Positions 548 to 20,005 of a DNA stretch of 20,005 nucleotides are shown in pieces. Where the stretch lies: positions 1-20,005 of IMG/VR virus record IMGVR_UViG_3300029267_000830. One strand, written 5' to 3'. The notes beneath the pieces were generated by a model. It was not told the DNA's origin. It did no database searches and saw only the letters and a list, made by a program, of their open reading frames with translations. The translations under genes and the position numbers were made by a program. The DNA is from a virus. How positions within the stretch are numbered: position 1 is the stretch's first letter; every line of letters begins with the position of its first letter.

Positions 548-634
548 ATGAGAGAATATAAAAATATATACAAATTAGTATATCTAAGGAGAGTCAAGCA
601 CGACGGGAGAAGGCGGGTTACTATTATTGGATGA
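548..634 (+). CDS. Possible 28-residue basic leader peptide
   Basis: An ATG lies about 8-10 bases after the predicted transcription start and opens a short frame rich in Arg, Lys and Tyr. It ends with TGA at 632-634, inside the ribosome binding site of the next gene. No ribosome binding site precedes it, so it would have to be read as a near-leaderless message, which archaea allow. It could be a leader peptide that affects translation of the terminase small subunit, or chance. No family is recognised. Confidence 0.2.
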   Translation: MREYKNIYKLVYLRRVKHDGRRRVTIIG

Positions 635-639
635 TATAT

Positions 640-1215
640 ATGACGAAGAGCAAAATAGAAAAATGGAACCTTGAAGAGGAGGTCGATCGTATGTTAGCTG
701 AGGGAAAGACGGCATACGCAGTGGCGAAACATATAAGTGAAAAGTATGCTGATATTCCTGAGTTGGCGAAGGTTAATAAGATGACTATCAGTCGTCATAT
801 TAAAAAGAAAGACGAAGACCGAATCGAAAATAAGTTGCAAGAGAAGAAAGATCCGATGGGTGTTGTGGAACAAGAATTCAACACCAAGATGCGTCAAAAC
901 ATTCTCGATGCAGAATCTATGAATCAGTTAGTAATGAGCTACAAGAATAAGCTCGACGCTGACGACTTAACAACTAAAGACTTAGCAACAATGTTGAAGG
1001 CATGGCAAACCGCTAATGACCAAATGAGGAAGAACCTAGTGTCATTAAGAGAATACACAGATAACCACATAATCAAACCAACACAAAACATAATCTACAA
1101 GAAAGAGATTAATGTAAAGAATATGTTAGTTGATTATGCACGTGAGCTATGTCCAGAATGTAGAAAAAAGATTAGTAAAATAATCGATATTGGAGAAGAT
1201 GAATATGACTTGTAA
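640..1215 (+). CDS. Terminase small subunit (probable)
   Basis: About 191 residues, highly charged and mostly helical. Near residues 22-50 a helix-turn-helix-like segment (AYAVAKHISEKY, then MTISRHIKKK) fits the DNA-binding N-terminus of small terminases, which recognise the packaging site and load the large subunit. A central helical part could be the oligomerisation core. A single CPEC pair lies near the C-terminus. The ATG at 640 is preferred to the one at 631 because GGATGAT at 629-635 is then correctly spaced, matching the GGTGAT-ATA-ATG pattern of other genes here. It is the first full gene after the promoter at 508 and lies upstream of the large terminase, the standard position. The assignment rests on position, size and HTH, not on a strong family signature; a virus regulator with an HTH is the alternative. 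Confidence 0.6.
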   Translation: MTKSKIEKWNLEEEVDRMLAEGKTAYAVAKHISEKYADIPELAKVNKMTISRHIKKKDEDRIENKLQEKKDPMGVVEQEFNTKMRQNILDAESMNQLVMSYKNKLDADDLTTKDLATMLKAWQTANDQMRKNLVSLREYTDNHIIKPTQNIIYKKEINVKNMLVDYARELCPECRKKISKIIDIGEDEYDL

Positions 1216-1447
1216 GAAACCATTTTGGCGACCAGGTGATGGATACGAGTGGGAAACTACACTCAAACACTTCTTGTATGGACTTGTTTTAGCTATTTTA
1301 TCTGCTGGAATTACATGGACAATTGGCTATCTCGAAGTTGCTCAAATTCCGCCTGAATATGCTATCTATACTGGTTTAATTATCGCTATCCTCGAATCCA
1401 TCGGTAATATGGTTACCCATTGGAATGATGAGTACGAGGGACAGTAG
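1205..1447 (+). CDS. Small membrane protein, two helices
   Basis: Eighty residues. Two hydrophobic segments (about residues 22-42 and 52-69) are separated by a short loop with EVAQIPPEY, and the tail is acidic. The start at 1205 is chosen because GGAG at 1192-1195 then lies 9 bases upstream; in-frame ATG 1199 and TTG 1190 are too close to, or before, that site. It overlaps the end of the small terminase gene by 11 bases, so the two are probably co-translated. A hairpin membrane protein of this size could be holin-like or could affect the host envelope. No family is recognised, and its place between the terminase subunits is unusual. Confidence 0.65.
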   Translation: MTCKKPFWRPGDGYEWETTLKHFLYGLVLAILSAGITWTIGYLEVAQIPPEYAIYTGLIIAILESIGNMVTHWNDEYEGQ

Positions 1448-1691: not shown

Positions 1692-3071
1692 ATGGAAAAC
1701 GAATCGAAAATACTTAGATACATGCTGAGTCCAAAAGCATTCATGGAAGAAGTCTTAGGACTAACTGTTAAAGACTTTCATGCTGAATGGCTGGACGCAA
1801 TGCAACAAAACGATCATTTATGTTTACTAGCTCCAAGAGGACATGGTAAGTCTACAATTGTAGAAGGCTTTGTCGTTTGGAATATATTACTAAATCCTAA
1901 GATAAGGATTCTGATTGTTTCTATGAATCAGAACAAATCTGAGGATATGATGAATTTCATCAAATCATGTCTTGAACTCGAACAGGTTACTGAGATATGG
2001 GGAGAGCAGAAATCTCCAACTTGGTCAAGAAATAAAATTCGAGTCAAGAATCCAAAAGGTGGCATCCAACACAAAGAACCAACTCTACAGGTTCTTGGTG
2101 TGACATCATCACAAATTTCATCTCACTATGATATGATTATCCTTGATGATGTTCAAGATAGACAGAATGTTGCTACTGCTAATCGTAGAAAACAAATAAG
2201 AGATTGGTACAACACTGAGCTATTAGAGATGTTGGAACCTGGCGGAAAAATACTTAATATCGCAACACGATGGCACGAAGATGATTTACATAATTACTTA
2301 TCACAAAAGTCAATGTATAAAACTCTAAGATATCAGGCTGTTGACTATGAAAAGAAAACTGCTCTGTGGCCTGAGAGATTTACATATAACGATTTAATAT
2401 TATTAAGAGACGAACACATCGGCAAAACTGCATTCGCTATGCAATATCAAAATGAGATTGTTCAGACAGAAGATTCTCCAATTGATATGGAATGGGTTGA
2501 AAATGCACAAGCTCGTTGGAATCCAAGACACATCCCACCTGGATGTGAAAGATACATAGGTGTCGACTTGGCATCTAAGAGTGAAGATGGTGACTATTTC
2601 GTTGCAACAGTAGTTGCTAAGGACGAAAACAAAAACTATTGGGTTGTTGAATCAATTAGGGCACATAAGTCAATGAGTCAACAATTAGACATTATTTTAT
2701 CCCTAGCAGAAAAGTATGTTCCTAATAAAATAGGAATAGAATCAAATGCTACACAGCGAATAATAACAGACGAATGGATTGATCAGACTGATCTTCCAAT
2801 CTTACAAATAAAATCTTCATGGGTCAATGATAAGTGGTCTAGAGTACAAAGACTAGCAGTCTTACTCGAAACCAATAGAATAACAATTAATCCTTCATTG
2901 GATTTCTTGATAGATGAACTTATTAGATTTCCACGAGGAGCACACGAAGATGCTTTAGACAGTTTAGCATTTGCTATACAAGCATCTGGAGATGATAGAG
3001 AAGTAGACTGGGACGCAGTTATCAACTGTGTTAAAACAAAAACACGTAACCCATATGTGACTAAAATATAA
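1692..3071 (+). CDS. terL: Terminase large subunit (packaging ATPase-nuclease)
   Basis: Motor that pumps viral DNA through the portal and cuts it to length. The 459 residues are normal for the family. ATPase half: Walker A APRGHGKS at about residues 47-54, Walker B IILDD at 149-153 within SHYDMIILDDVQD, and a motif III-like ATRWHEDD near 191-198. Nuclease half (RNase H fold): acidic residues in GVDLAS (D292), GIES (E350) and HEDALDS (D420/D423), all three expected acidic positions present. The start at 1692 follows a weak GTGA site after a candidate promoter. It is followed at short distance by Alba and portal genes with GGAGG or minimal gaps, one transcription unit. The assignment is firm. 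Confidence 0.95.
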   Translation: MENESKILRYMLSPKAFMEEVLGLTVKDFHAEWLDAMQQNDHLCLLAPRGHGKSTIVEGFVVWNILLNPKIRILIVSMNQNKSEDMMNFIKSCLELEQVTEIWGEQKSPTWSRNKIRVKNPKGGIQHKEPTLQVLGVTSSQISSHYDMIILDDVQDRQNVATANRRKQIRDWYNTELLEMLEPGGKILNIATRWHEDDLHNYLSQKSMYKTLRYQAVDYEKKTALWPERFTYNDLILLRDEHIGKTAFAMQYQNEIVQTEDSPIDMEWVENAQARWNPRHIPPGCERYIGVDLASKSEDGDYFVATVVAKDENKNYWVVESIRAHKSMSQQLDIILSLAEKYVPNKIGIESNATQRIITDEWIDQTDLPILQIKSSWVNDKWSRVQRLAVLLETNRITINPSLDFLIDELIRFPRGAHEDALDSLAFAIQASGDDREVDWDAVINCVKTKTRNPYVTKI

Positions 3072-3083
3072 TGGAGGATTACT

Positions 3084-3374
3084 ATGACTGACAAAATAGA
3101 AGAGGTATACATTGGCGACAAGCTATCTGGCAAATACGTTAATGCTGGTCTTTGGGCTATCAAGTCTGGTGGAGTTGCCAGACTCATGGGTCGAGGACAT
3201 AACATCAAGCGGTGTGTTGATGTTACTGAAATCTTAAAGCGGAAGTTAAATAATCCAGAAACTCATATTGAAATATGGACTGAGGAGTACATGGATAAAA
3301 AAACCAAAAACTTACTCAAAGTGTCCGTTATAGCAATTGAGATAACTGGTACTATAAAAAATGAGGATGAATAA
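3084..3374 (+). CDS. alba: Alba-family DNA/RNA-binding protein
   Basis: Ninety-six residues matching the whole Alba fold, the small archaeal chromatin and RNA-binding dimer. The N-terminal strand and helix read EVYIGDKLSGKYVNAGL, lined up with the family's IGKKPVMNYVLAAL; of the two lysines used for DNA contact, the first is Asp (D12) and the second is kept (K13). The loop and helix GRGHNIKRCVDVTEI match GRGRAISKAVDTVEI. The end, LKVSVIAIEIT, matches the last strand. A GGAGG site sits 7 bases before the ATG. It lies 12 bases after the large terminase and 2 bases before the portal, so it is made with the packaging machinery. Possible roles: coating packaged or packaging-ready DNA, competing with host Alba, or binding late mRNA. 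The family is clear, the role is inferred. Confidence 0.85.
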   Translation: MTDKIEEVYIGDKLSGKYVNAGLWAIKSGGVARLMGRGHNIKRCVDVTEILKRKLNNPETHIEIWTEEYMDKKTKNLLKVSVIAIEITGTIKNEDE

Positions 3375-3376
3375 AT

Positions 3377-4732
3377 ATGGGATTAACAGAATCCATTAGG
3401 TCTATCCTTGGTAGACCAAATATAGAATACTTTGATGCAAAGACAGGAAGACCAAAAACTACAGTTAAAACTGGTGAGAAGAAAGGATTTTCTGCACCAG
3501 GTACATTCCAGAGAACCCAACAACAATTACAATTATATTGGAATTATTATGACTCTGACAATACTGTTTGGGCTGCAACTAATTCATTAGCTTTTAATAC
3601 TGTTATGGTAGGATACGATATTGTATCAGAAAATGAAGAAGCTAAGAAGGTTATTGAGAAGTGGTGTAAAAGAGTTGATTTGCAAACACACTTACTTGAT
3701 AGTGTCATTTATGCAGTTGTATTTGGTGATGCTTTCCTTGAAGTTATTGGAAACAAGAAAGGTGAGCCATCAAGTCTTAAAACAGTAGATCCAAAAACTA
3801 TGGAAATAGAATATGACAAATTTGGTGTAGTTCAATACTACATGCAAAGTCTTGGCAAAAGAGACAAGACAGGAATTCCAAAACTAGAGACTGAAAGGAT
3901 TTGTCACATAAAATTATTTTCAATGCCAGATGGGCCTTATGGTATTTCTATGTATAAGGCTAATCTAGAGGCAATCCAAAACAAAATTAAAGTAGACAGA
4001 GCACTTACAAATGCAATCATAAGACATGGCACATCTAAATTAGTATTCACTGTTGGCTCAGAAAAAGATGGTAAATTACCTCCACCTGCTGTGCTTGATG
4101 CAATAGAAAGTGAGGTAGAAGATATCGATGAGAAGAATGAATTCATTGTCCCATGGAATGTAACGGTACAATCCATAGATGAGAATGGAATTCAAGGTGT
4201 AGAGCAATATTATGACTTTGCACAAACTGAGCTGATTATTGGTATGATTTGCCCTGAGGAAGCATTGGGTATGGGCAAAAACACAACTAATGCCACATCT
4301 AAGACTAAGGCAATATTATATGAGAGAATGATTAGAACATTCCAACAAAGGATAGCTAGAACAGTTGAGAAACAATTATTTACTAGAGTCTTACAATCTA
4401 ATGGATTTGATCCAGAAGAAGTGTATGTGGAAATTAAATTTAAAAATGTAACTAGTGAAGACGATGCTATGGAAGCTAAATGGATGGGTAATCTTATTAG
4501 AGGATTCCGCTCTTCAACTGTAAAACCTTTCACAATTAATGAGATTAGAAAGAGATTTGGTGAGCGTGAATTGGACATACCAGAAGCTAACACTATTTTA
4601 TATGGTGAATTTGAAGAGGGTGGAGACCAAAATGAGCCTGGTGATGATGGAATGGAAGAAGACCCAGAATTAGATGACATGGATGAGAATGCTAAAGAAG
4701 ACATGAAAGAAGAACTAAATGAGGAAGAATGA
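3377..4732 (+). CDS. Portal protein
   Basis: Forms the ring at one capsid vertex through which DNA passes and to which the tail attaches. The 451 residues are typical. Family-like segments include TVWAATNSLAFNTVMVGYDI near residues 62-81, SVIYAVVFGDAFLEVI, the central DKFGVVQYY and KTVDPKTMEIEYD region, and QYYDFAQTELIIGM before a long helix (TTNATSKTKAILYERMI) that fits the stem/tunnel region. The last 40 residues are almost all acidic, a tail seen in some portals and possibly used for scaffold or motor contact. It sits 2 bases after Alba and overlaps protease 1 by 4 bases (ATGA), the standard portal-protease-capsid order. Confidence 0.88.
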   Translation: MGLTESIRSILGRPNIEYFDAKTGRPKTTVKTGEKKGFSAPGTFQRTQQQLQLYWNYYDSDNTVWAATNSLAFNTVMVGYDIVSENEEAKKVIEKWCKRVDLQTHLLDSVIYAVVFGDAFLEVIGNKKGEPSSLKTVDPKTMEIEYDKFGVVQYYMQSLGKRDKTGIPKLETERICHIKLFSMPDGPYGISMYKANLEAIQNKIKVDRALTNAIIRHGTSKLVFTVGSEKDGKLPPPAVLDAIESEVEDIDEKNEFIVPWNVTVQSIDENGIQGVEQYYDFAQTELIIGMICPEEALGMGKNTTNATSKTKAILYERMIRTFQQRIARTVEKQLFTRVLQSNGFDPEEVYVEIKFKNVTSEDDAMEAKWMGNLIRGFRSSTVKPFTINEIRKRFGERELDIPEANTILYGEFEEGGDQNEPGDDGMEEDPELDDMDENAKEDMKEELNEEE

Positions 4733-5256
4733 TGTCTACAAAGAAAAGATTAACGGTTCACAATGTATCGTTCGAATACAATGATAAGATTGTGAGTAAA
4801 AACACTGATGTTAGAATGTATCGTGATGTAGTTATGATTGCACCTGGAACGTTTACTGATTCAATTACTATGGCTCCAGTCAATTATTCTGCTGATGTAT
4901 TATCAAGGACTTCACATAAAGTAAGATCAAACTATCTAAATATTGATCATTCACATAGAACTTTAGATAGAGTTGGTAGATTCGTCAATCCCTACTGGGA
5001 TGGAGAGAAAGTACGCGCTGATCTGTGGATTTATCCAGTAACTCAGAATGCAAGAGACACTATTAGTCTTATTGACGAAGGATTAGTCAACTGGTTATCA
5101 GTTGAACTAATGACTGAAGATGAATGGGATATACATGATGAGAGGAATGTCGTGGACTTAGAATATATAGGTCTAGCAGTAGTGACATCTCCAGCATGTA
5201 AAGAATCACTTATTGATGAGTATGGTGAGAATCCTCCAGATTGGTTGTACGAATAA
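4729..5256 (+). CDS. Prohead maturation protease 1 (short form)
   Basis: Serine protease of the HK97/U35 prohead family that trims capsid subunits during maturation. In 175 residues it shows the family pattern: His in YLNIDHSHRTLDRVG (H74/H76), Ser in GLVNWLSVELM (S124), and a following acidic position in DLEYIGLAVVTSPAC (E145 region) that matches the family's EhSlVxxPA segment. There is no scaffold-like tail, unlike protease 2 (7419-8630). The start is ATG 4729 or the adjacent ATG 4732; both overlap or abut the portal stop, indicating translational coupling. Having a second protease in the same virus is odd. This copy is nearest to capsid protein 1 and may serve it. Confidence 0.75.
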   Translation: MMSTKKRLTVHNVSFEYNDKIVSKNTDVRMYRDVVMIAPGTFTDSITMAPVNYSADVLSRTSHKVRSNYLNIDHSHRTLDRVGRFVNPYWDGEKVRADLWIYPVTQNARDTISLIDEGLVNWLSVELMTEDEWDIHDERNVVDLEYIGLAVVTSPACKESLIDEYGENPPDWLYE

Positions 5257-5591
5257 TGAAATCACTTCACGTAGATGGTTGTCCATTTTGTAAAATCTTC
5301 GAAGAATTATATCTTCCTACTGAATTGTATTATCCTAAAGCGTCTGAGATTAAAAAGTTTGATGACTTTGTCATCATAAATTATAAAAAGAAACATATTG
5401 TTGTTGTGACGGACCACGTCCAATCTGTTTCAAAAGAACAGTGGGGCAGAGTCCTTTATAAATGTAAAGAACTATATGGTCAGGGAACACGTCTTAAGAT
5501 GAAGATGTATCCTATAAGAGACCATTGGTACGCAGAAATAGTCTGCTCTAATCAGAGAGACTATACACAAAAAGATTTAAGAGGCCAATAA
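5256..5591 (+). CDS. Degenerate HIT-like protein (tentative)
   Basis: One hundred and eleven residues beginning at the ATG that overlaps the protease 1 stop by one base (TAATG). It resembles the histidine-triad (HIT) nucleotide-binding fold: CPFC at residues 9-12, FDDFVIIN, then KKKHIVVVTDHV (H47, H54) matching the usual H-hLVI-xxH stretch, a helix with WGRVLYKCKELYG, and DHWYAEIV at 89-96 where the triad HxHxH should be. Only the first triad His is kept; the second and third are Tyr and Glu. If it is a HIT fold it is probably not a nucleotide hydrolase, but it could still bind zinc or a nucleotide. It also overlaps the next gene by one base. A virus-specific protein with a chance likeness is possible. 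Confidence 0.4.
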   Translation: MKSLHVDGCPFCKIFEELYLPTELYYPKASEIKKFDDFVIINYKKKHIVVVTDHVQSVSKEQWGRVLYKCKELYGQGTRLKMKMYPIRDHWYAEIVCSNQRDYTQKDLRGQ

Positions 5592-5772: not shown

Positions 5773-6699
5773 ATGAGTAGACTAACAAAAATATTGGAAT
5801 ATGCAAACTCTCCTCCAAACAAACAGAAAAAACTGTTAGAACAAAAAGACTTTCCCTCTGACATGAAGAAGCTATTACTTGACACTCCATCAGAGTCATC
5901 TGATTTGGTTCGTCGAGAAGCTATTGGTGCAGTTGTTGAAGGTGCTAAGTCAAGAGAGAGTTGCAGAAAACTCTTACCAATCATAAATACTAATAGTAAT
6001 ACGGTAAAAATAGCATATGGAGCTACTCCATCTGGTGTATATGCACAATATGTATCTGACGGTGCTGCGATTCCTATAATGACTAATAATTACACATCTG
6101 GAAATGCTACTATTAAGAAAGCTGCAGTAAGACCAGCAATCACAATGGAAATGATTGAAGACGGTCAATACGATACAATTGAATTGGAGCTTCGTAGAGC
6201 TGGTGCTTTGTTAGAAAACAAACTTAATCAGCAAGTAATGACTACATTACTAGATGGTGTTAGTGGACCTGCAAATGTTGATCCTACAACTCATGTAACT
6301 ATTGCAAACATTGGTGAAGTAAAGAGCAATGTTGATGCATATGGTTGGATGGCTGATTCAGTATTTATTCACCCTGCTGCGTTTGGCTGGTTATATGATG
6401 AAGCCAATGTTTCTGACATTGTTGATGGAACGCATAATCTATTAGGAATGAAAACTGCAATTGTTGATTGTGTAACTGATGGAACTGGAACAGCGTATTG
6501 GGATGACACAGACAATACGAACCATTATTATGGTCTTGTGTTTGATTCATATAACTTTGGTTATATAGCAATGCGAGAAGATATTAATGTAAAAGGTTAC
6601 AAAGACCCAGTACATGATTTGGTAGGAATGAATGTATCAATGAGATTTGGTGTTGGCATCATGAATGCTAATGCTGGATGTAGAATATTATCTAAGTAG
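5773..6699 (+). CDS. Major capsid-type protein 1 (HK97 fold, paralogue)
   Basis: Capsid shell protein of 308 residues. It shares with the 9189-10175 product the opening MSRLTKxLEYA, a middle part EGAxxxxxCRxxxPxI, then GAAIPI, VRPxIxxExIEDG and LExKxN, and the ending MRxDxxxxxYxDPxHDLVGxxxxMRFGV. The N-terminal 45-50 residues are charged and helical, like the delta region that prohead proteases remove. The product is therefore a true paralogue of capsid protein 2. Six of its 20 Ile codons are ATA, against 2 of 31 in capsid protein 2, hinting at lower expression. It may form a special vertex (as T4 gp24 does beside gp23), mix into the shell, or build an alternative capsid. The upstream sequence lacks a clear GGTGA site. 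Confidence 0.82.
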   Translation: MSRLTKILEYANSPPNKQKKLLEQKDFPSDMKKLLLDTPSESSDLVRREAIGAVVEGAKSRESCRKLLPIINTNSNTVKIAYGATPSGVYAQYVSDGAAIPIMTNNYTSGNATIKKAAVRPAITMEMIEDGQYDTIELELRRAGALLENKLNQQVMTTLLDGVSGPANVDPTTHVTIANIGEVKSNVDAYGWMADSVFIHPAAFGWLYDEANVSDIVDGTHNLLGMKTAIVDCVTDGTGTAYWDDTDNTNHYYGLVFDSYNFGYIAMREDINVKGYKDPVHDLVGMNVSMRFGVGIMNANAGCRILSK

Positions 6700-6707
6700 G
6701 TATCCAA

Positions 6708-7184
6708 ATGACAAATCTGGCAGAACGAATTGGTAAATTAGAGAAAATATCACAAAGACTTCTTGCCGAAGAGAAAGGATTTGATTTAGGTGAGTGCGAA
6801 GCTGGTACACTAATATCAAAAAATCCATTTATGGATACCTTATTTATATTTCTTGACCACCTTGAGACGTTTGCTATGATAACAGAACCAGACGATTCTG
6901 TTATATATGTTAATCAACCAATGATTGATTGGCTTAATAAACTTGGAGCATCATTTGATTTAAAATCTAAAAAACCTTGGTGGGAACAAATTGGATGGGC
7001 AACAAATCCATCTGATAAAGGAATTTGTACTCAAGAATGTATGCAAAAAAGGAAAGTGATAAATCATTATGTGCCATCAAGATATATTGATGGACTTAGA
7101 TACGAAGTTATGTGCATACCATTAAAATATAATGGTGTTGCTGCTGTTTTGTCTTTAATAAGACCTGTTGATACTAATGACTGA
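6708..7184 (+). CDS. PAS-domain protein
   Basis: One hundred and fifty-eight residues. Residues 1-25 form a short amphipathic helix (ERIGKLEKISQRLLAEEKG), likely a dimer coiled coil. Residues 50-154 read as a PAS sensory domain: FAMITEPDDSVIYVNQPMIDW at the first strands and helix, a WW-containing middle, then GLRYEVMCIPLKYNGVAAVL and IRPVD at the last strands. GICTQECM (C107, C111) in the loop could bind a metal or sense redox state. There is no kinase, HTH or other output domain. The gene begins 8 bases after capsid protein 1 and overlaps the next, a membrane protein, by 8 bases. PAS domains bind small ligands or cofactors; its signal here is unknown. A PAS protein in a capsid operon is very unusual. 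Confidence 0.72.
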   Translation: MTNLAERIGKLEKISQRLLAEEKGFDLGECEAGTLISKNPFMDTLFIFLDHLETFAMITEPDDSVIYVNQPMIDWLNKLGASFDLKSKKPWWEQIGWATNPSDKGICTQECMQKRKVINHYVPSRYIDGLRYEVMCIPLKYNGVAAVLSLIRPVDTND

Positions 7185-7422
7185 TGAACAAAGATGGATG
7201 GATTTAGCTGAATTTCGAGGAGAAACAATTGAAGCAATGAAAGCCATTCACAGAGAACTAGAAGATATAAAGGATTCGCAAAGAAGAATTTCTGATAAAT
7301 TTGATAATCATTGTATGGATTTTGTAACATTGAAATCTAAGGTAGCTGGTATGGCTGTAGGCATCAGTATGGTAACATCAATTGTTGTTGGTTTAATAAT
7401 GTTAATGTTAGGTGTATTATGA
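7177..7422 (+). CDS. Coiled-coil protein with C-terminal membrane helix
   Basis: Eighty-one residues from the ATG at 7177, which overlaps the PAS gene by 8 bases; an upstream in-frame ATG at 7168 is also possible. Residues 12-57 are charged with heptad-like spacing (IHRELEDIKDSQRRISDKF), followed by one hydrophobic helix at 58-81 (VAGMAVGISMVTSIVVGLIM). This architecture resembles XhlA-type haemolysis or holin-accessory proteins of phages, which have a coiled coil followed by one membrane helix. It overlaps protease 2 by 4 bases (ATGA). The strict coupling to the PAS gene suggests the two act together, perhaps sensor and membrane partner. That link is inference. Confidence 0.65.
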   Translation: MTDEQRWMDLAEFRGETIEAMKAIHRELEDIKDSQRRISDKFDNHCMDFVTLKSKVAGMAVGISMVTSIVVGLIMLMLGVL

Positions 7423-8630
7423 GTGATATAAATATTGTAATAAAAGATAGCCTCTCTGATAATGAGAAGGAATTCATCGAAAAAGAATTAGCTACATTGT
7501 CAGATAAAATTAAGTATGACTTAATATCTTATGATGATAGAGATCACATAGAGTTTGACTTAAAAGGTGGTCTTGAAGTTGTAAATAAATCTGATGATGG
7601 TCGTAGAGTTATTGCTGGCTATGCTAGTGTTGCAGTGGTAGATGATGACAATCAATATATACCACCAAAGGTATTAGAAGATGGTCTTAGGACTCTAATG
7701 GCTGATGAATCTTATGCTAACTTAATGGTAGTTCACCACAACATACAAATAGGAAAACTTCTTAGTGAATATAAAGATTTACAGACCAAAGTCGATGACA
7801 AAGGTCTATTTATTGTAGCAGAAATACGTAAGGACTTAGAGACAGCAAATAGTATCTGGAGTAAAATCTTAAATGGGATTATGAAAGGATTCTCCATCGG
7901 AGGAGAAATTATAGAGAAACATAACCATTGTGATGAAGACAGATGTTATGAAATGATAGATAAAATTAATTTGTTTGAAGTCTCAGTTTGTAGCAATCCC
8001 ATCAATAGTCCATCAGGATTTGAGATTGTTGCGAAGTCAAATGTAAGTGAAAAATGTGAATATAAGGACGATGACAATATGTCAGAAAATAAAGAAGAAT
8101 TGGATACCAATGACTGTAAAGATTGCGATCCAAAGGATGTAGTCGAAGAGAAAGTAGAAAAGACAGAAGAGACCGAAGTTGTTGAAGAAAAGGTCGAAGA
8201 ACCTGTTGAAGAGACAGAAAAGGCGGATCCTATGGAAGCTATCATGAGTCAGATGGAGGACTTGTTTAACAAGTTTTCAAGTTCAATTGTCGATCAGTTT
8301 GATACTATTATGAAGTCAATTAACGAACCAGAACCAGTCGAAACAGAAACCGAGGAAAAGTCCGAGGACGAAGTTACAGAAGAGAAAGTCGAAGAGACTG
8401 AAAAATCTGAGGACAAAGAATTTGAATATGCCATTAAAGCTCGTGACGATGCAATCAAAGGTTACGAAGAAAAAATTGGTGAACTCGAAAAAACTATCAA
8501 AGACCTCTCAGCCAAAGTTGAGAATCTTGAGAATGTTGAAGAGACTCCAAAGACCACACACGAGGTCGAAGAGGAAATCATCAAAGATTCTGGTATCATC
8601 ATTAAACATGGTCGAGTTTACAAAGCTTAG
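7419..8630 (+). CDS. Prohead protease 2 fused to scaffold-like tail
   Basis: Four hundred and three residues in two parts. Residues about 48-205 form an HK97/U35 prohead protease: GRRVIAGYASVAVVDDDNQ, His in LMVVHHNIQIGKL (H106/H107), Ser in GIMKGFSIGGEI (S159), and LFEVSVCSNPINSPSGF (E187) as the third conserved block. From about residue 210 the chain is extremely acidic (VEEKVEETEE-like runs) with helical segments at 245-285 (MEAIMSQMEDLFNKFSSSIV) and a coiled coil at 330-375 (GYEEKIGELEKTIKDLSAK), like an internal scaffold. Many phages combine protease and scaffold in this way. An internal ATG at 8079 may give free scaffold. The gene overlaps the membrane protein gene by 4 bases. Confidence 0.82.
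   Translation: MSDINIVIKDSLSDNEKEFIEKELATLSDKIKYDLISYDDRDHIEFDLKGGLEVVNKSDDGRRVIAGYASVAVVDDDNQYIPPKVLEDGLRTLMADESYANLMVVHHNIQIGKLLSEYKDLQTKVDDKGLFIVAEIRKDLETANSIWSKILNGIMKGFSIGGEIIEKHNHCDEDRCYEMIDKINLFEVSVCSNPINSPSGFEIVAKSNVSEKCEYKDDDNMSENKEELDTNDCKDCDPKDVVEEKVEKTEETEVVEEKVEEPVEETEKADPMEAIMSQMEDLFNKFSSSIVDQFDTIMKSINEPEPVETETEEKSEDEVTEEKVEETEKSEDKEFEYAIKARDDAIKGYEEKIGELEKTIKDLSAKVENLENVEETPKTTHEVEEEIIKDSGIIIKHGRVYKA
8079..8630 (+). other. Possible nested scaffold start inside protease 2
   Basis: An in-frame ATG (codon 221 of protease 2) falls exactly at the border between the protease domain and the acidic tail, with AAGGA at 8064-8068 about 10 bases upstream. The product would be 183 residues of acidic, coiled-coil scaffold. 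In phage lambda, scaffold Nu3 is made in this way from inside protease gene C. The ribosome site is weak, so this is only a candidate. Confidence 0.35.
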
Positions 8631-8689: not shown

Positions 8690-9118
8690 ATGGCGATGAC
8701 ATTTGCTGCAATTACCGAAGATATTATTGTAGAAGAAGGCACTTTTGGTATGAACTTCGTTGCTTCTGGTACCATCCTTGGTGGAGAGGGAGTCGAAGTT
8801 GTTGGTGAGACTACAGGCTATGGTCGAGCAAAAGTTAAAGTTGCTTCACAAGATCATGGTAATTATCTTGCATCAACTAGCTGCTTTATCGGTGTGGCTG
8901 GTGGCCCAGCAACTGATGGTAACCCAGTGACTGTTTACCCAGTTGGTAACAAGGTTACTGTTCGTGCATCTGGTGCAATCACTGCAGGTGATGCAGTTAA
9001 AGCCGTATCAAAAGGTTTCTTCAAATCACAATATCTTCATGCATCTGGTGCTGCGCATCAGGGAATTGCATTGGAAACCTTCACTAGTAATGAGATGGGT
9101 ATTATCTTACTCGTCTAA
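8690..9118 (+). CDS. Capsid cement/decoration-like protein
   Basis: One hundred and forty-two residues, rich in Gly, Val and Ala, beta-structured and without long helices. The segment ASGAITAGDAVKAVSKGFFK with earlier VYPVGNKVTVRA is like the DUF2190/capsid cement group, in which small beta proteins bind the capsid surface and stabilise it. Its place between protease and main capsid protein is the usual place for such genes. GGTGATATAA stands right before the ATG, a strong site. None of its 9 Ile codons is ATA, and many codons end in C, suggesting high expression like capsid protein 2. A head fibre or minor capsid part is an alternative. Confidence 0.6.
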   Translation: MAMTFAAITEDIIVEEGTFGMNFVASGTILGGEGVEVVGETTGYGRAKVKVASQDHGNYLASTSCFIGVAGGPATDGNPVTVYPVGNKVTVRASGAITAGDAVKAVSKGFFKSQYLHASGAAHQGIALETFTSNEMGIILLV

Positions 9119-9188: not shown

Positions 9189-10175
9189 ATGAGTCGACTA
9201 ACGAAGATGCTCGAATATGCTTTCGCAGGAAATGCAGAACAATCCCGAATGAGACAAAAAGAATCTTTCAAGACTACAGTTTTGGATACAATTCCAAAAG
9301 CTGAGAAAGAACTTTTGATTTCAGAGGGTATGAATTCTACGTCTCTCTTGCAAACTGAAGTATACAACACTATCCTTGAGGGTGCACAACCTGAGATGGT
9401 ATGCAGAAACATTTTCCCAACGATTACAACCGACACTAACCAAATTCGTATTACTTATGAATCAGGTTCACTTGGCCTAGCCGAGGAAGTTGCAGAGGGA
9501 GCAGCTATACCAATTCATACAGAGAATTTCAATACACACAACATTGATATTAAGAAAATTGGTGTCCGACCTGTGATTACTAATGAACTTATCGAAGATG
9601 GTCTTTGGGATATGGCTGAGTTTGAACTTAAAAGAGCTGGACAAAAACTTGAACACAAGTTTAATTACGATGTAATTGGTGAAGCTACTGATTTAGATAC
9701 GTATAGTTCAATCGGATCAACTAATGCTGGAGGTACTTGTACCGTCCAACAGTTAATTACTGCAATTAAGGATATCCATAACAATGATCAGTTCCCAACT
9801 GATATTATCCTTACTCCAACTGCATATGCTAGCTTGATATCTGGTTCAAACATCTTAGAGGCAAACAAAGCAGGAGATAACAAAGCACTCAGAAACTATG
9901 ATATTGGATCTGTTCTTGGTCTTAAAGCACATATGCTTACAGTTGATGGACCTCCAAGTCCAACTACTAGTTATCAGTGGAATCATGGCTATGATACCGC
10001 AGTTGATATCGGTGCTGTTATTTGTGATCCATCATATTGTATGATTGGAATGCGAAGAGACCTTACCATTGAGCAATATGACGACCCAATCCATGATTTG
10101 GTTGGTATTGCTGCAACAATGAGATTTGGTGTCAAAACAGTAGATCAAACAAAAGCTCACATCTTGTACCATTAG
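9189..10175 (+). CDS. Major capsid protein 2 (HK97 fold, probable main shell)
   Basis: Three hundred and twenty-eight residues forming the HK97-type capsid shell. It is paralogous to the 5773-6699 product over its whole length (shared MSRLTKxLEYA start, EGAxxxxxCR, GAAIPI, VRPVITNELIEDG, and a DPIHDLVG-MRFGV end). Residues 1-50 are helical and charged, a likely delta domain removed by the prohead protease. An AGGTGATAAA site precedes the ATG. Only 2 of 31 Ile codons are ATA and many codons end in C, unlike capsid protein 1; the gene follows the cement gene and is closed by a hairpin plus T-run. These signs suggest it is the abundant shell protein and protein 1 the minor or specialised one. 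Confidence 0.87.
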   Translation: MSRLTKMLEYAFAGNAEQSRMRQKESFKTTVLDTIPKAEKELLISEGMNSTSLLQTEVYNTILEGAQPEMVCRNIFPTITTDTNQIRITYESGSLGLAEEVAEGAAIPIHTENFNTHNIDIKKIGVRPVITNELIEDGLWDMAEFELKRAGQKLEHKFNYDVIGEATDLDTYSSIGSTNAGGTCTVQQLITAIKDIHNNDQFPTDIILTPTAYASLISGSNILEANKAGDNKALRNYDIGSVLGLKAHMLTVDGPPSPTTSYQWNHGYDTAVDIGAVICDPSYCMIGMRRDLTIEQYDDPIHDLVGIAATMRFGVKTVDQTKAHILYH

Positions 10176-12498: not shown

Positions 12499-12951
12499 AT
12501 GGCAGGAATAGTTACAGGTGAGCACGCCCTGATTAAGTTCAGCAGTGCAGCAACTGCAGGTGGTTTTACTAATATGACGCTTCATGCTTTTTCGGATTTC
12601 TCTCTTACTTTTGACAGAGGAACTGTTGAGCAAGAGCTTTGTGGTCAGAAAGGAAATTACTTTAAACCTGGTGCTATGAGTATCGAAGGTTCTCTTACGG
12701 CTTGTAGATTTGGTGCATCAGGAAGCGATGCATTCTTAGATAGTATTATTGATGGTACATTATTTAAACTTTCAGGTACTACTAAATCTGGTGCTGCAGC
12801 AACTGATGACATTGGATTCTTTTTCCATTCATGTCAGTGTACTGGCTATGATGTAACTGCTGGAGATGCAAGTACTATTTCAGAAGCAACCATTGATTTC
12901 ACTGTACTCGATCCGTACAATATTACGTACGCATCTGGTTGGATACAATAA
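12499..12951 (+). CDS. Tail tube protein, copy A
   Basis: One hundred and fifty residues, almost wholly beta, forming rings of the tail tube by inference. It is homologous to copy B (12963-13430): both contain RGTVEQELxGQxGNYF, GSLTxxxxG, FLDS and GDASTIxEAxxDFTxLxPY at matching places. AGGTGATATA precedes the ATG. Tandem tube genes may make two ring types, for instance a main tube and a specialised terminal ring, or a tube and a decorated form. A tube role is inferred from fold type, size and position between terminator and chaperone. Confidence 0.7.
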   Translation: MAGIVTGEHALIKFSSAATAGGFTNMTLHAFSDFSLTFDRGTVEQELCGQKGNYFKPGAMSIEGSLTACRFGASGSDAFLDSIIDGTLFKLSGTTKSGAAATDDIGFFFHSCQCTGYDVTAGDASTISEATIDFTVLDPYNITYASGWIQ

Positions 12952-12962
12952 GGTGATGAAAT

Positions 12963-13430
12963 ATGGCATATGGAGATAATTTAACTACATATACTGGTGA
13001 GGAAGCATTCCTTTATTTCAAACCGTATGGTGGTTCTGGCTATGACATGGCTGGTATTGGTGTAGGAGACTTCACTATTACCCTAGAGAGAGGTACAGTA
13101 GAGCAAGAGTTGTTAGGTCAAACTGGTAATTACTTTACTCAAGGTTCGTTAACAGTAAATGGTTCATTAACATCAGTTAAACTTGGTAGTAATGCGGCTG
13201 GTATCTTTTTAGATTCTATGCTAAATACTAAGGTTATCCAAATTTCTGGTGGAGTTAATAACATTAGTGGACTAACATTTGATTTCGCATCTGGACAGAT
13301 TACTGGGTTTGATATTAGTATGGGTGACGCATCAACTATTACTGAAGCATCTGTTGACTTCACTATACTGAATCCGTATCAGCTTACAAAGACTGCTACG
13401 GCAAACGGTACAAAACATCTTTCATGTTAA
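12963..13430 (+). CDS. Tail tube protein, copy B
   Basis: One hundred and fifty-five residues, paralogous to copy A across the whole length, with a different N-terminus (MAYGDNLTTYTGEEAFLYF) and a longer C-terminal tail (KTATANGTKHLSC). It follows copy A by 11 bases with its own GGTGAT, so both are made from one message. The conserved core RGTVEQELLGQTGNYF and GDASTITEASVDFT is kept, so neither copy looks decayed. It is followed by a T-rich run before the chaperone gene. Confidence 0.7.
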   Translation: MAYGDNLTTYTGEEAFLYFKPYGGSGYDMAGIGVGDFTITLERGTVEQELLGQTGNYFTQGSLTVNGSLTSVKLGSNAAGIFLDSMLNTKVIQISGGVNNISGLTFDFASGQITGFDISMGDASTITEASVDFTILNPYQLTKTATANGTKHLSC

Positions 13431-15659: not shown

Positions 15660-18600
15660 ATGATAGAATTAGTATTGATTGCAATGTTAATAACATTGGG
15701 TCTAGGAGCAGTCTATTTCAGACAAGATATTATTAAATGGTTTAAGAGTCATTGGAAGAAAATGGCCGTTATTGGAACAACTGGTTTAATATTAGGAGGT
15801 GGAGCTTTATTAACATTAGAACCACCATCATTAGATACAGGATGGAATAATCCAACAGGAGATGGTGCTGGTTATGATGAATGGACTAATCCAACTAATG
15901 CATATACACAAAATGATATTAGAGCTCAAGCATCTAGTTCTGGTCCAGGTGCGAATGAACAAACATTCAGTGATTTTGGGTTCGATGAAGAAGTTGCAAG
16001 TGCGATATCAATAGATGGTATAGAATTAGAATTAGATATATATGGAGCTGCTAGTGGCGGGGATTTTACTATTAAACTATCGTGGAATTCTGGTAGTAGT
16101 TGGACTTCAACTCAACAATATGAAAATGTTGGTACTTCAGATACTGACACATATTATGCACTTGGTGGTAGCTCTGATACGTGGGGACATACATGGTCAA
16201 CATCAGAGTTGGAAGACGATAATTTTTTGGTTTATATTGTTGTTCAAGGAGGTGGAGTGTTTGGTACAACATTTTATGTTGACCATGTACGCTGTAAAGT
16301 ATATTATACTATAAATAGTAATCCAACTTGTACTTTAGATGAAATACCTGCTTCAGCTGGGGATAGCGATGTAGTTCCTATTGAGGGAACTGCTACTGAT
16401 TCTGATGGTGGGGATTATATTACTAATGTTAAGATGAGATTACTAAATAATACTGATGCAACGTGGTGGCGTGATTCTGATGATTCGTGGCAAGGTGGAA
16501 AAGCGCAATATTTTGATGCAGTTCCATCAGATGGTACTTTTAATTCTGCAAGTGAAGATTTTGAGTATAATATAGAAACAAATCATGGTGAATTTGTAGC
16601 AGGAAAGAGTTATAGTATATATGCTCAAGCATTTGATAATAATGGTGGCAAATCAAATATTGACACTGATTCTTGGACACATGTCGGTGATAATACAATA
16701 CCATATATTTCTAATCCAATTCCTGAAAATGAGTCAACAAATTGGTATTCTTCTCCTTCAATGTCAATCGATATTGAAGATGCAGAGGGAGATAGTATGG
16801 AGATTTATTGGAATTGGTCAGAAACAGGTACTGGTAGTTGGGAAAATTTTGGTCATTATACTTCACAAACAAATGGTACAAAATCAGAAACTGCAGATTT
16901 TGCAGATACCGAATCAACTACATATTACTGGAAAGTTGATGTTGGAGATGGAACTACTTGGAATAGTTCGGATGTCTTTGAATTTACTACAGGTACTCCT
17001 GCAGAAATTAATCCGTGGCCAGCTAATTCTAGTACTGATATTTTAACTGGTATTACTAATGTTACATTTGAGCTTACTGGTGGAGCAGATGAAATACGAA
17101 TAACTGGACATAATATAGATACAGGAGCACAAACAATAAGTCAGACACTTACAAATAAAAGAGCTGGACGTTATAATGCTACTGTAAATACATATTTTAT
17201 GTTTAATAATACAATAAAGTGGTACATTAATTCGTCATTTGATGATGCATGGTATAACGGAACATATTTTACTTATACAACTTTTAATGGTTCTGGATTT
17301 TTATATTTAGACAACGAAACTAATTCTTCTGCAGAAGAATCTGATGATTATCGTTTAGGTGTAGAAGCAATTAATGGAACTTATTTTATTCTATGCAATA
17401 ACACTGATCATGATATTGATTTATTATGTTATAATGTTCAAAATCAAACTCTAGTTCATTATGAAACAGTTCAAATGGATGGCAGCGCAGCATTTACCGC
17501 ATCGGAAGTGAAAGGTTTAGCGGCTGCCAATTATCTACATACAATTTATTTTCATGATGGAGTATTAGGACCAAAAAGTACAATTCAATCTGTTGATGTA
17601 ATGACTCCTTTTGGAGGAGAGTTTTATACTAAATTAGGAAAGGAACAATTTGGAGTTGCAGTAATTAGAGATGTTGCTGCTACAGCAAATACATCAGACC
17701 CTACTTCAGATTGGCTTCACGTTTCTATGAATGGTGATGGAGTCAATGGTATTAGATGTTGGAATATCTCAGGAGAATATAGCGGATTTTATGAAGAGGG
17801 AAATACTTCTGTAATTCAGGCGCGTGTGGGCAAATTAGATGTTATTGGTCAAAATATTATTGGTATAGACAGTTCAGATTATGATTTAAATTTATTTACT
17901 TATGACGGTACTTACACATATAGAGATACTTATGTGGGAACATATAATGATATTGTTCAAGATGGAACGTATTTTTATGCTGTTTCTGATACATCATTAG
18001 ATATATTTACTGTAGAAGATAATGAAATTGTTCGTTTATATAGTCATGAAGATTCTGCAGAAACAGCATATAAAATTGGTGATGAAGTATTCTTAGGTAC
18101 CATAGATGGATATTTAGGTTCATTTTTATTTGAGGGTGGAGATTTTCTTGAGCAAGAATCAGAAGATATGATAAACAACACAAAGAATGTTTATCGATTA
18201 AACGGTGAAGATATGTATGTTGTTGCAGCGTGTGAAGATGGTGGTTTGCATCTTTATGGTTATGAATTATTGAGAGTTGCTCCTCCAGTTATTATAGTTG
18301 ATATTGCTGGAGACCCAACTGCTGATATAGTTACTCGAGATGGACAATTAAGATATGTCAATCAATCGTTTAACTTTCAATCATTTTGTAATGTAACAGC
18401 AAATATCACAGTTCCAGATTATCGTACAATGGGGAGATATTTTAAAACTACAGATGATGATATTTTAGTTGCTTCAGGAAATTTAAGTGATGGTGATACA
18501 CAATATGTTCATGAACAAAATCATACTATAATAGCATGTAAATATCCTTGTACTTATACAGGTAAATATAGTCAAATTACAGCTTATTTATTAGGTTCTG

Positions 18601-20005
18601 GATTAGCTCCACCGTGGGTAGGTTATGCAATTTATGATGATAATTCAGGTGAGCCAGGAAATCTTTTAGCATATACATCAGCAGGTTGGCCTGGAAGTGA
18701 TGTATTTACTGAAACTCAAAGAGATTTAGGAACTCTTTATTATCCACCTTGTCATAGGGTTTGGCATACTCAAGACATTGCTTATGACGCAAATGATGAT
18801 GCAATCAATTATATTGAATTAACAGAAGGAATGGATTATTGGATTGTAATGGCAACTAATGATAGTTTAGGATATACTACTTGGGGCCTTACATATTCTA
18901 CTGATATTTATTGGCTTCTTTGTAATGAGTTAGGTGATGAGTCACAGATGAAAGTTGCTCAATGGAATATTACCGCAGATTGTAATTTCAGTAATGTAAC
19001 ATCACCAACTTGGGAAACTGCTGTAGGACAGAATGGTGAATCTCCTAATTATGGTTGTATTTATGCAGTTGCAAATTCAACTTATAATGATATCACAACA
19101 GTTGATATTACTTCTGCAACATTAGAATGGTATAATGATTCTTCAAATGATTGGAATTTAACTATGACTCAAATGGCTGATGGAAATTGGACTTATAATG
19201 TTACTGGATTAGATGATAATAAATGGTATTCGTTTGATATTACTGCTAGAGATGAATTGGATGATTCCGTCACATACGAACATTATAGACAGATTGTAGA
19301 AGGAAATACTGAAAGAATAGAATTTATGAATAATGTTCCAGCGACCCAAGAAGCTGACCATTTAGGTTATGATAAAGACCTTAATACGTCAGCTGATTTA
19401 TATGCATCACCTTACGTATTTTATCTAGAAAATAGGACTTATGGTACTGATACTTGGTATGGTGATGATGAACATATGGAAGATGCACTTCCTCATGAAC
19501 AAGGTGTTGATGGTACTGCTGATGATACTGGTGGATGGGTAAGAGGATTACCTGATGATGAGATACAAGCAAGACATTGTTTAAAGTTTGCTGGTGGATG
19601 GTGGGATGAGAATATATCTATTGATGGCGAAGTTACTTTAAATCGTATTTATTATCACTGGTGGACAGGTGGTGGAGGATTAGGTGCATGGGATACTATG
19701 CGAGTTCATTTTGGTCAATTAGATACTCTTTATGATTTTGGGTGGTTAGAACTTACTGAAGAAGTAGGTGAATCATGGAATTATACAGAATTAGATACAA
19801 ACGCAAGTTGTCGTGAAACTTATTATCCTATTCCTATTTCTGAAAATGTTAAAGACCCTGAAATATTAAATCTTGGTAGATTAAGAACGGGATATATTAA
19901 TGTTTCGAATATTGATGATAATACATTCGATGGTAATAGTATTTATAATTTCTTTATGGGATTTGATAATAATGGTTCTCCACCATTTGATGGAGATGAG
20001 GGTTG
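15660..20005 (+). CDS. Giant membrane-anchored, sequon-rich beta protein (3' end missing)
   Basis: Open from ATG 15660 to the window end, over 1448 codons without a stop. Residues 3-18 and 35-52 are membrane helices joined by a basic loop (RQDIIKWFKSHWKK). Then, by eye: a beta sandwich (about 55-220), three FN3/Ig-like units (221-545, with PYISNPIPENEST and INPWPANSSTD openings), a beta-propeller-like region (about 546-872), a further sandwich with CKYPCTYTGKYSQITAYLL (about 955-1090), an FN3-like unit (about 1135-1205) and more. I count about 42 N-x-S/T sequons, nearly all after residue 345. This is the look of archaeal cell-surface proteins and fits an adhesin, receptor-binding or exclusion protein. 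It is not a tape measure: no long coiled coil is seen. Confidence 0.8.
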   Translation, partial: MIELVLIAMLITLGLGAVYFRQDIIKWFKSHWKKMAVIGTTGLILGGGALLTLEPPSLDTGWNNPTGDGAGYDEWTNPTNAYTQNDIRAQASSSGPGANEQTFSDFGFDEEVASAISIDGIELELDIYGAASGGDFTIKLSWNSGSSWTSTQQYENVGTSDTDTYYALGGSSDTWGHTWSTSELEDDNFLVYIVVQGGGVFGTTFYVDHVRCKVYYTINSNPTCTLDEIPASAGDSDVVPIEGTATDSDGGDYITNVKMRLLNNTDATWWRDSDDSWQGGKAQYFDAVPSDGTFNSASEDFEYNIETNHGEFVAGKSYSIYAQAFDNNGGKSNIDTDSWTHVGDNTIPYISNPIPENESTNWYSSPSMSIDIEDAEGDSMEIYWNWSETGTGSWENFGHYTSQTNGTKSETADFADTESTTYYWKVDVGDGTTWNSSDVFEFTTGTPAEINPWPANSSTDILTGITNVTFELTGGADEIRITGHNIDTGAQTISQTLTNKRAGRYNATVNTYFMFNNTIKWYINSSFDDAWYNGTYFTYTTFNGSGFLYLDNETNSSAEESDDYRLGVEAINGTYFILCNNTDHDIDLLCYNVQNQTLVHYETVQMDGSAAFTASEVKGLAAANYLHTIYFHDGVLGPKSTIQSVDVMTPFGGEFYTKLGKEQFGVAVIRDVAATANTSDPTSDWLHVSMNGDGVNGIRCWNISGEYSGFYEEGNTSVIQARVGKLDVIGQNIIGIDSSDYDLNLFTYDGTYTYRDTYVGTYNDIVQDGTYFYAVSDTSLDIFTVEDNEIVRLYSHEDSAETAYKIGDEVFLGTIDGYLGSFLFEGGDFLEQESEDMINNTKNVYRLNGEDMYVVAACEDGGLHLYGYELLRVAPPVIIVDIAGDPTADIVTRDGQLRYVNQSFNFQSFCNVTANITVPDYRTMGRYFKTTDDDILVASGNLSDGDTQYVHEQNHTIIACKYPCTYTGKYSQITAYLLGSGLAPPWVGYAIYDDNSGEPGNLLAYTSAGWPGSDVFTETQRDLGTLYYPPCHRVWHTQDIAYDANDDAINYIELTEGMDYWIVMATNDSLGYTTWGLTYSTDIYWLLCNELGDESQMKVAQWNITADCNFSNVTSPTWETAVGQNGESPNYGCIYAVANSTYNDITTVDITSATLEWYNDSSNDWNLTMTQMADGNWTYNVTGLDDNKWYSFDITARDELDDSVTYEHYRQIVEGNTERIEFMNNVPATQEADHLGYDKDLNTSADLYASPYVFYLENRTYGTDTWYGDDEHMEDALPHEQGVDGTADDTGGWVRGLPDDEIQARHCLKFAGGWWDENISIDGEVTLNRIYYHWWTGGGGLGAWDTMRVHFGQLDTLYDFGWLELTEEVGESWNYTELDTNASCRETYYPIPISENVKDPEILNLGRLRTGYINVSNIDDNTFDGNSIYNFFMGFDNNGSPPFDGDEG

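Follow-up and report, generated by a model that had tools for sequence, protein, structure and literature searches.

Two divergent HK97-type major capsid proteins (MCPs), both accompanied by a maturation protease of their own, have been described for the Ekchuahviridae, which include the Methanophagales viruses GBV301 and GBV302 (PMC9894754). The stretch of IMG/VR virus record IMGVR_UViG_3300029267_000830 analysed here (positions 1 to 20,005; hereafter the window, 20,005 bases) shares this trait, encoding two HK97 MCPs and two S78-type proteases, an arrangement which is therefore not new, having already been published for that family; unlike the window, the Ekchuahviridae are presented in the main text of PMC9894754 with no mention of a PAS domain. 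The window is a tailed-virus structural module (Table 1), in which the genes for a stand-alone PAS sensor and for a tail-anchored coiled-coil membrane protein (CC-TM) directly precede the second protease gene (protease B).

Table 1. Features of the window (positions in bases; strand where recorded).
Feature	Position	Strand	Remarks
terS-like gene	631-1215		
Small membrane protein	1202-1447		Between terS and terL; conserved throughout the lineage
terL	1692-3071		
Alba-family DNA/RNA-binding protein	3084-3374		Most members of the lineage encode it between terL and portal
Portal	3377-4732		
S78-like protease A	4729-5256		
Cys/His small protein	5256-5591		CxxC near N-terminus, H-x-H-type motif near C-terminus (DHWHAHI in relatives); HIT-like by eye, without convincing Pfam match; behind protease A in nearly all relatives
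MCP1, HK97-type capsid protein	5773-6699	+	Upstream of the cassette; missing from many PAS-bearing relatives
PAS sensor gene	6708-7184	+	N-terminal helix (residues 4-23) followed by predicted PAS fold (about residues 40-158); lacks an output domain
CC-TM	7177-7422	+	ATG 7177; 81 aa; predicted TM residues 63-81; XhlA-like architecture
Protease B, S78/HK97 prohead protease	7419-8630	+	ATG 7419; long acidic, coiled-coil scaffold-like tail
Cement/decoration-like protein	8690-9118	+	Between protease B and MCP2
MCP2, HK97-type	9189-10175	+	Downstream of the cassette; better conserved shell protein
Paralogue 1	12499-12951		Adjacent to paralogue 2, possibly tail-tube-like; pair kept in L002 and L007
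Paralogue 2	12963-13430		
Large surface or adhesin-like protein	15660-20003		At least 1448 aa, the ORF being cut by the window's end; beta-rich segments of Ig-like appearance and a membrane helix at the N-terminus

The ORF coordinates agree with the overlaps of 8 bases (PAS/CC-TM) and 4 bases (CC-TM/protease B) reported in the first-pass annotation, and the trio is indeed flanked by two shell genes, both of HK97 type; neck and tail genes come after MCP2. The three genes are considered real because the order of their proteins is kept in relatives whose PAS proteins are only about 20-60% identical. MCP1 alleles appear to be swapped between backbones, that of the window showing 78% identity to L007 (7067-7993) and 39% to L003 (7057-7986), despite TerL identities of 82% and 80%, respectively.

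Regarding the PAS protein of the window taken alone, no Pfam or NCBIfam match was obtained and the PDB sequence matches were at chance level, so that the proposed membership in PAS families stands on its relatives: members of the family match PAS_9 (best 1.5e-9), PAS (6.5e-8), PAS_8 (1.8e-6) and also PAS_4, and the family profile matches the Aer2 PAS domain at 9e-5. The second PAS gene of L048 (6898-7329) scores above the curated cut-offs for PAS_9, PAS and PAS_8, the other members that were scored remaining below threshold. An AF2 model built from a 20-sequence alignment has a core pLDDT of about 90-95, and its strands and helices follow the order of a PAS domain; it gave 106 Foldseek matches in the PDB at E<=1e-3 (best E 6e-6), of which the best 50 were all PAS/LOV domains, and an earlier model from 8 sequences agrees. 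Judged by model and family profile, the gene thus encodes a stand-alone PAS-fold protein, and the domain is, as first described, free of an output module: the ORF stops at the last PAS strand, and no kinase, HAMP or other output is present. Because the protein ends there, the N-terminal helix is its sole evident output element. Redox sensing through C107/C111, which had been suggested, fits poorly with the family, as C107 is missing from L003, L007 and L009 and the cysteine set differs between lineages; of the two loop cysteines in the window, C111 is conserved within its clade and C107 is not, and the loop-region count varies from 0 to 4 among the PAS proteins (a cluster of 3-4 in 10 of the 20 family members). 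Light sensing has likewise been abandoned, no LOV GxNCRF(L)Q flavin-binding motif occurring anywhere in 6708-7184. The ligand probably differs from lineage to lineage.

In all 29 aligned CC-TMs a C-terminal TM helix is predicted by hydropathy, ending no more than 7 residues from the C-terminus, and the charge just before it is neutral or positive; the coiled coil was recognised from sequence and profile matches. Membrane helices are oriented according to the positive-inside rule, which, given this charge, would place the coiled coil in the cytoplasm, alongside the sensor. The PHROG family phrog_1193 ('hemolysin') was matched by 20 of the 29 proteins (best 1.9e-7) and Pfam XhlA weakly by nine (best 7e-5), the highest XhlA score, 23.3 bits (L019), lying below the cut-off of 34.7. 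These matches weakly favour a holin-accessory role, and the similarity could be that of any coiled coil followed by a TM helix; since low complexity makes them unreliable, release timing is put forward as a hypothesis. No lysis gene adjoins CC-TM and no endolysin was recognised in the window, where the small membrane protein encoded between terS and terL is an equally good holin candidate. Searches of annotated phages for relatives of PAS or CC-TM returned nothing beyond chance-level matches. Values of dN/dS were saturated for nearly all pairs, only the CC-TM pair L051/L073 being usable (about 0.19).

PAS, TerL and protease B served as queries in scans of viral contigs for relatives, which represent a broad lineage; genes were mapped by HMMs, the ORFs upstream of protease B were read, and near-identical contigs were counted once. 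Among the 30 distinct contigs with protease B and readable upstream DNA, 20 carry PAS (the window, L003, L007, L009-L012, L025, the short or truncated L046 and L047, L048, L051, L052, L056, L058, L061, L062, L064, L067 and L073), three a cupin alone (L026, L054, L069) and seven neither (L019, L021, L024, L038, L049, L070, L071). A CC-TM-like gene adjoins protease B in nearly all 30, including the sensor-less ones; in L024 the adjoining coiled-coil gene is without TM but follows TM genes, and the gene of L070 was missed by the model. Overlaps of 1-4 bases between CC-TM-like and protease B genes are frequent, and overlap or near contact of sensor and CC-TM genes is the rule. Conservation of the trio, which had been proposed as a check, thus holds nearly always for CC-TM-like and protease B genes and in 20 of 30 contigs for PAS. 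As to whether PAS would be absent from relatives or placed at random, it is missing without replacement from seven of the 30 contigs and never lies elsewhere, all family matches in ten longer PAS-bearing records falling at the slot upstream of protease B; the gene thus behaves neither as randomly placed cargo nor as a universal component.

The cassette is present in at least six PAS-bearing records with one MCP only (L058, 144.5 kb; L067, 137.8 kb; L052, 155 kb; L061; L025; L056), on which ground the suggested role in capsid choice is rejected; these records may be incomplete, but three of them exceed 135 kb, and the PAS-bearing L009 and L011 have two MCPs each. Relatives of this head module thus lie on the 138-155 kb contigs of L058, L067 and L052, a size that is large for archaeal tailed viruses. 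A search of the larger records for subtilisin was empty. Before CC-TM, several relatives encode long fusions of a metallo-beta-lactamase-like part and an ATP-dependent DNA ligase domain (L021 8565-12455, L046 3669-6920, L022 13692-17654, L038 2-1135, and L049/L050); the L046 protein matches DNA_ligase_A_M at 4.8e-20, and the L021 copy looks, by eye, as if it bore an intein.

Cupins occupy the slot of PAS in L026, L054 and L069, and a further one precedes PAS in L062 (6955-7341 and 7334-7759), the tandem being followed by one CC-TM; all four match Cupin_2 and have invariant metal motif residues (HXH, E and a later H). Two PAS genes in tandem (6898-7329 and 7322-7765) likewise precede one CC-TM in L048, and each tandem sensor in both loci has its own N-terminal helix. 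A similar helix (DLxxLKxLTxEL) opens both the PAS and the cupin versions: when an HMM trained on PAS N-termini was searched against 2725 sequences, the N-terminus of the L062 cupin ranked first among non-PAS sequences (E 1.4e-4) and that of L069 second (0.014), the match being weak for the L054 and L026 cupins.

Pairwise similarities of sensor and CC-TM remain correlated when protease B is removed (partial r 0.51, P 5e-5, 19 loci) and when the portal is removed (partial r 0.68, P 1e-4, 15 loci), the corresponding value for CC-TM and protease B beyond portal being 0.40 (P 2e-4) and the correlation between protease B and sensor 0.30. Because part of the tree structure is disregarded in Mantel tests, more weight is given to the exchanges. 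On the protease tree L048 and L069 come out as sisters (100/100), with nearly identical protease B. Their DNA agrees at 77% until shortly before the sensor, then at 85% once the protease start codon is reached (7991 and 1628, respectively); between these stretches L048 has two PAS genes and one type of CC-TM, L069 a cupin and another type of CC-TM. Homology also resumes at the protease start in L010 versus L012 (10054 and 9289, respectively), and in L056 versus L061 the PAS subtypes are swapped together with their CC-TMs. By these comparisons the exchanged unit is sensor plus CC-TM, with protease B outside it as a conserved neighbour. Overlap, co-variation and co-exchange thereby support the genetic coupling of PAS to a single-helix coiled-coil membrane protein that had been read from the window, and the specific coupling to the protease is not upheld, homology resuming at its start codon. 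Taken across the contigs, the locus is a conserved, single-location, exchangeable sensor/membrane cassette, an observation stronger than reading one sequence could yield.

With its Alba gene, the window hints at an archaeal host. A scan of genome contigs with MCP2 yielded three MAG contigs (a Guaymas MAG binned as Planctomycetota, Methanoregulaceae and ANME-2), and the nearest annotated MCP is that of HRTV-4; together with Alba these apparently point to archaea. A TerL scan of genome contigs for a provirus was empty; protease B, searched for in the classes to which two of the MAG matches belong, gave nothing, and neither did a spacer-type DNA search of one phylum.

To our knowledge, the timing of assembly and exit decisions in archaeal tailed viruses is largely undescribed. 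That sensor and CC-TM are swapped as a unit, or the kind of sensor replaced, suggests a membrane step tuned to a cellular chemical signal, and the best explanation (probability roughly 0.42) is a two-gene module by which a late step at the membrane, probably the timing of release, is tuned to a small molecule. In the cytoplasm of the archaeal cell the soluble sensor (PAS here, metal-type cupin in some relatives) would bind a small molecule or cofactor; its N-terminal helix, the only element common to both kinds, would dock on the cytoplasmic coiled coil of CC-TM and switch or tune it. CC-TM would act late at the host membrane, most likely in virion release (lysis timing) as an XhlA-like holin accessory, and ligand binding would tie the time of exit to the metabolic or redox state of the host. 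Against this explanation, the seven sensor-less contigs retain a CC-TM-like gene, L024 only in a loose sense.

That gene, directly upstream of protease B in nearly every contig with or without a sensor, also fits a different function, in which CC-TM would anchor procapsid assembly (protease B scaffold plus portal) at the membrane and the sensor would gate assembly or maturation; the correlation of CC-TM with protease B beyond portal agrees. This is nevertheless unlikely, for CC-TM is coupled more strongly to the sensor than to protease B, HRTV-4 has a related MCP and no TM protein upstream of its protease, and L048 and L069 combine nearly identical protease B with unrelated types of CC-TM, homology from the start codon onward implying that no matched pair is needed. 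The repeated replacement of alleles in near-identical backbones resembles exclusion or immunity modules, and a small membrane protein would suit a superinfection-exclusion, immunity-type or host-signalling interference pair under diversifying exchange, the sensor tuning a membrane block directed at other viruses or at responses of the host. Exclusion genes usually act early, whereas a site inside the structural operon suggests late expression, and profile matches gave no homology to known exclusion proteins; this reading, too, is held to be improbable.

Location among capsid, decoration and adhesin-like genes would be expected if both proteins were virion components, packaged or embedded and acting at entry or uncoating; as far as we know, no membrane is present in tailed virions of this kind, and no scaffold, cleavage or capsid-binding motif was recognised in the proteins, which makes this quite improbable. 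Other phages, too, encode PAS proteins that stand alone, as they would if the gene were cargo unlinked to its neighbours whose product modulates host sensor kinases by heterodimerisation, but its single, unvarying position throughout the ten PAS-bearing records that were searched, the co-variation and co-exchange with CC-TM and the substitution by cupins at the same slot leave very little room for it. For the tuning of a late membrane step, natural allele replacements such as L048 versus L069 make both the signal and the gated step testable. If it is correct, viruses use modular small-molecule sensing outside transcription control.

The folds of the components are known; what is new is the system, and its novelty rests on comparative anatomy, not on function. 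The cassettes may, at somewhat less than even odds, represent a new class of sensing module in head operons of archaeal tailed viruses, in which a shared N-terminal helix connects interchangeable PAS, metal cupin or tandem sensors to a tail-anchored membrane effector, so that virion production or release follows host chemistry. In line with the first-pass annotation, no viral PAS system of this kind was found in the searchable literature, which is thin on subscription journals, most of these lying outside it.

Compared with archaeal and bacterial PAS sensors (3bwl, Aer2, DosP), the window protein shares the PAS fold and the region of the YxN motif, but unlike the PAS domains of signal proteins it has no kinase, cyclase, HTH or HAMP and bears an extra N-terminal helix common to the cupins. 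Stand-alone phage PAS proteins (BFVD A0A6J5KZZ3 and others) are likewise short viral PAS-fold proteins, for which, in contrast to the cassette, neither pairing with a CC-TM nor exchange for a cupin is described in searchable papers. T4 holin T with the antiholins RI and RIII (PMC8385771 for RI/RIII) offers a soluble regulator gating, upon a signal, a lysis-time membrane protein; the likeness is by analogy only, no sequence relation having been found and the sensor here being a PAS or cupin protein. XhlA (PBSX haemolysin, PF10779/phrog_1193) is, like CC-TM, a small coiled-coil protein of tailed viruses that bears a single membrane helix at its C-terminus, whereas CC-TM scores below the Pfam cut-off, lies in a head operon and not in a lysis cassette, and is paired with a sensor of ligand-binding type.
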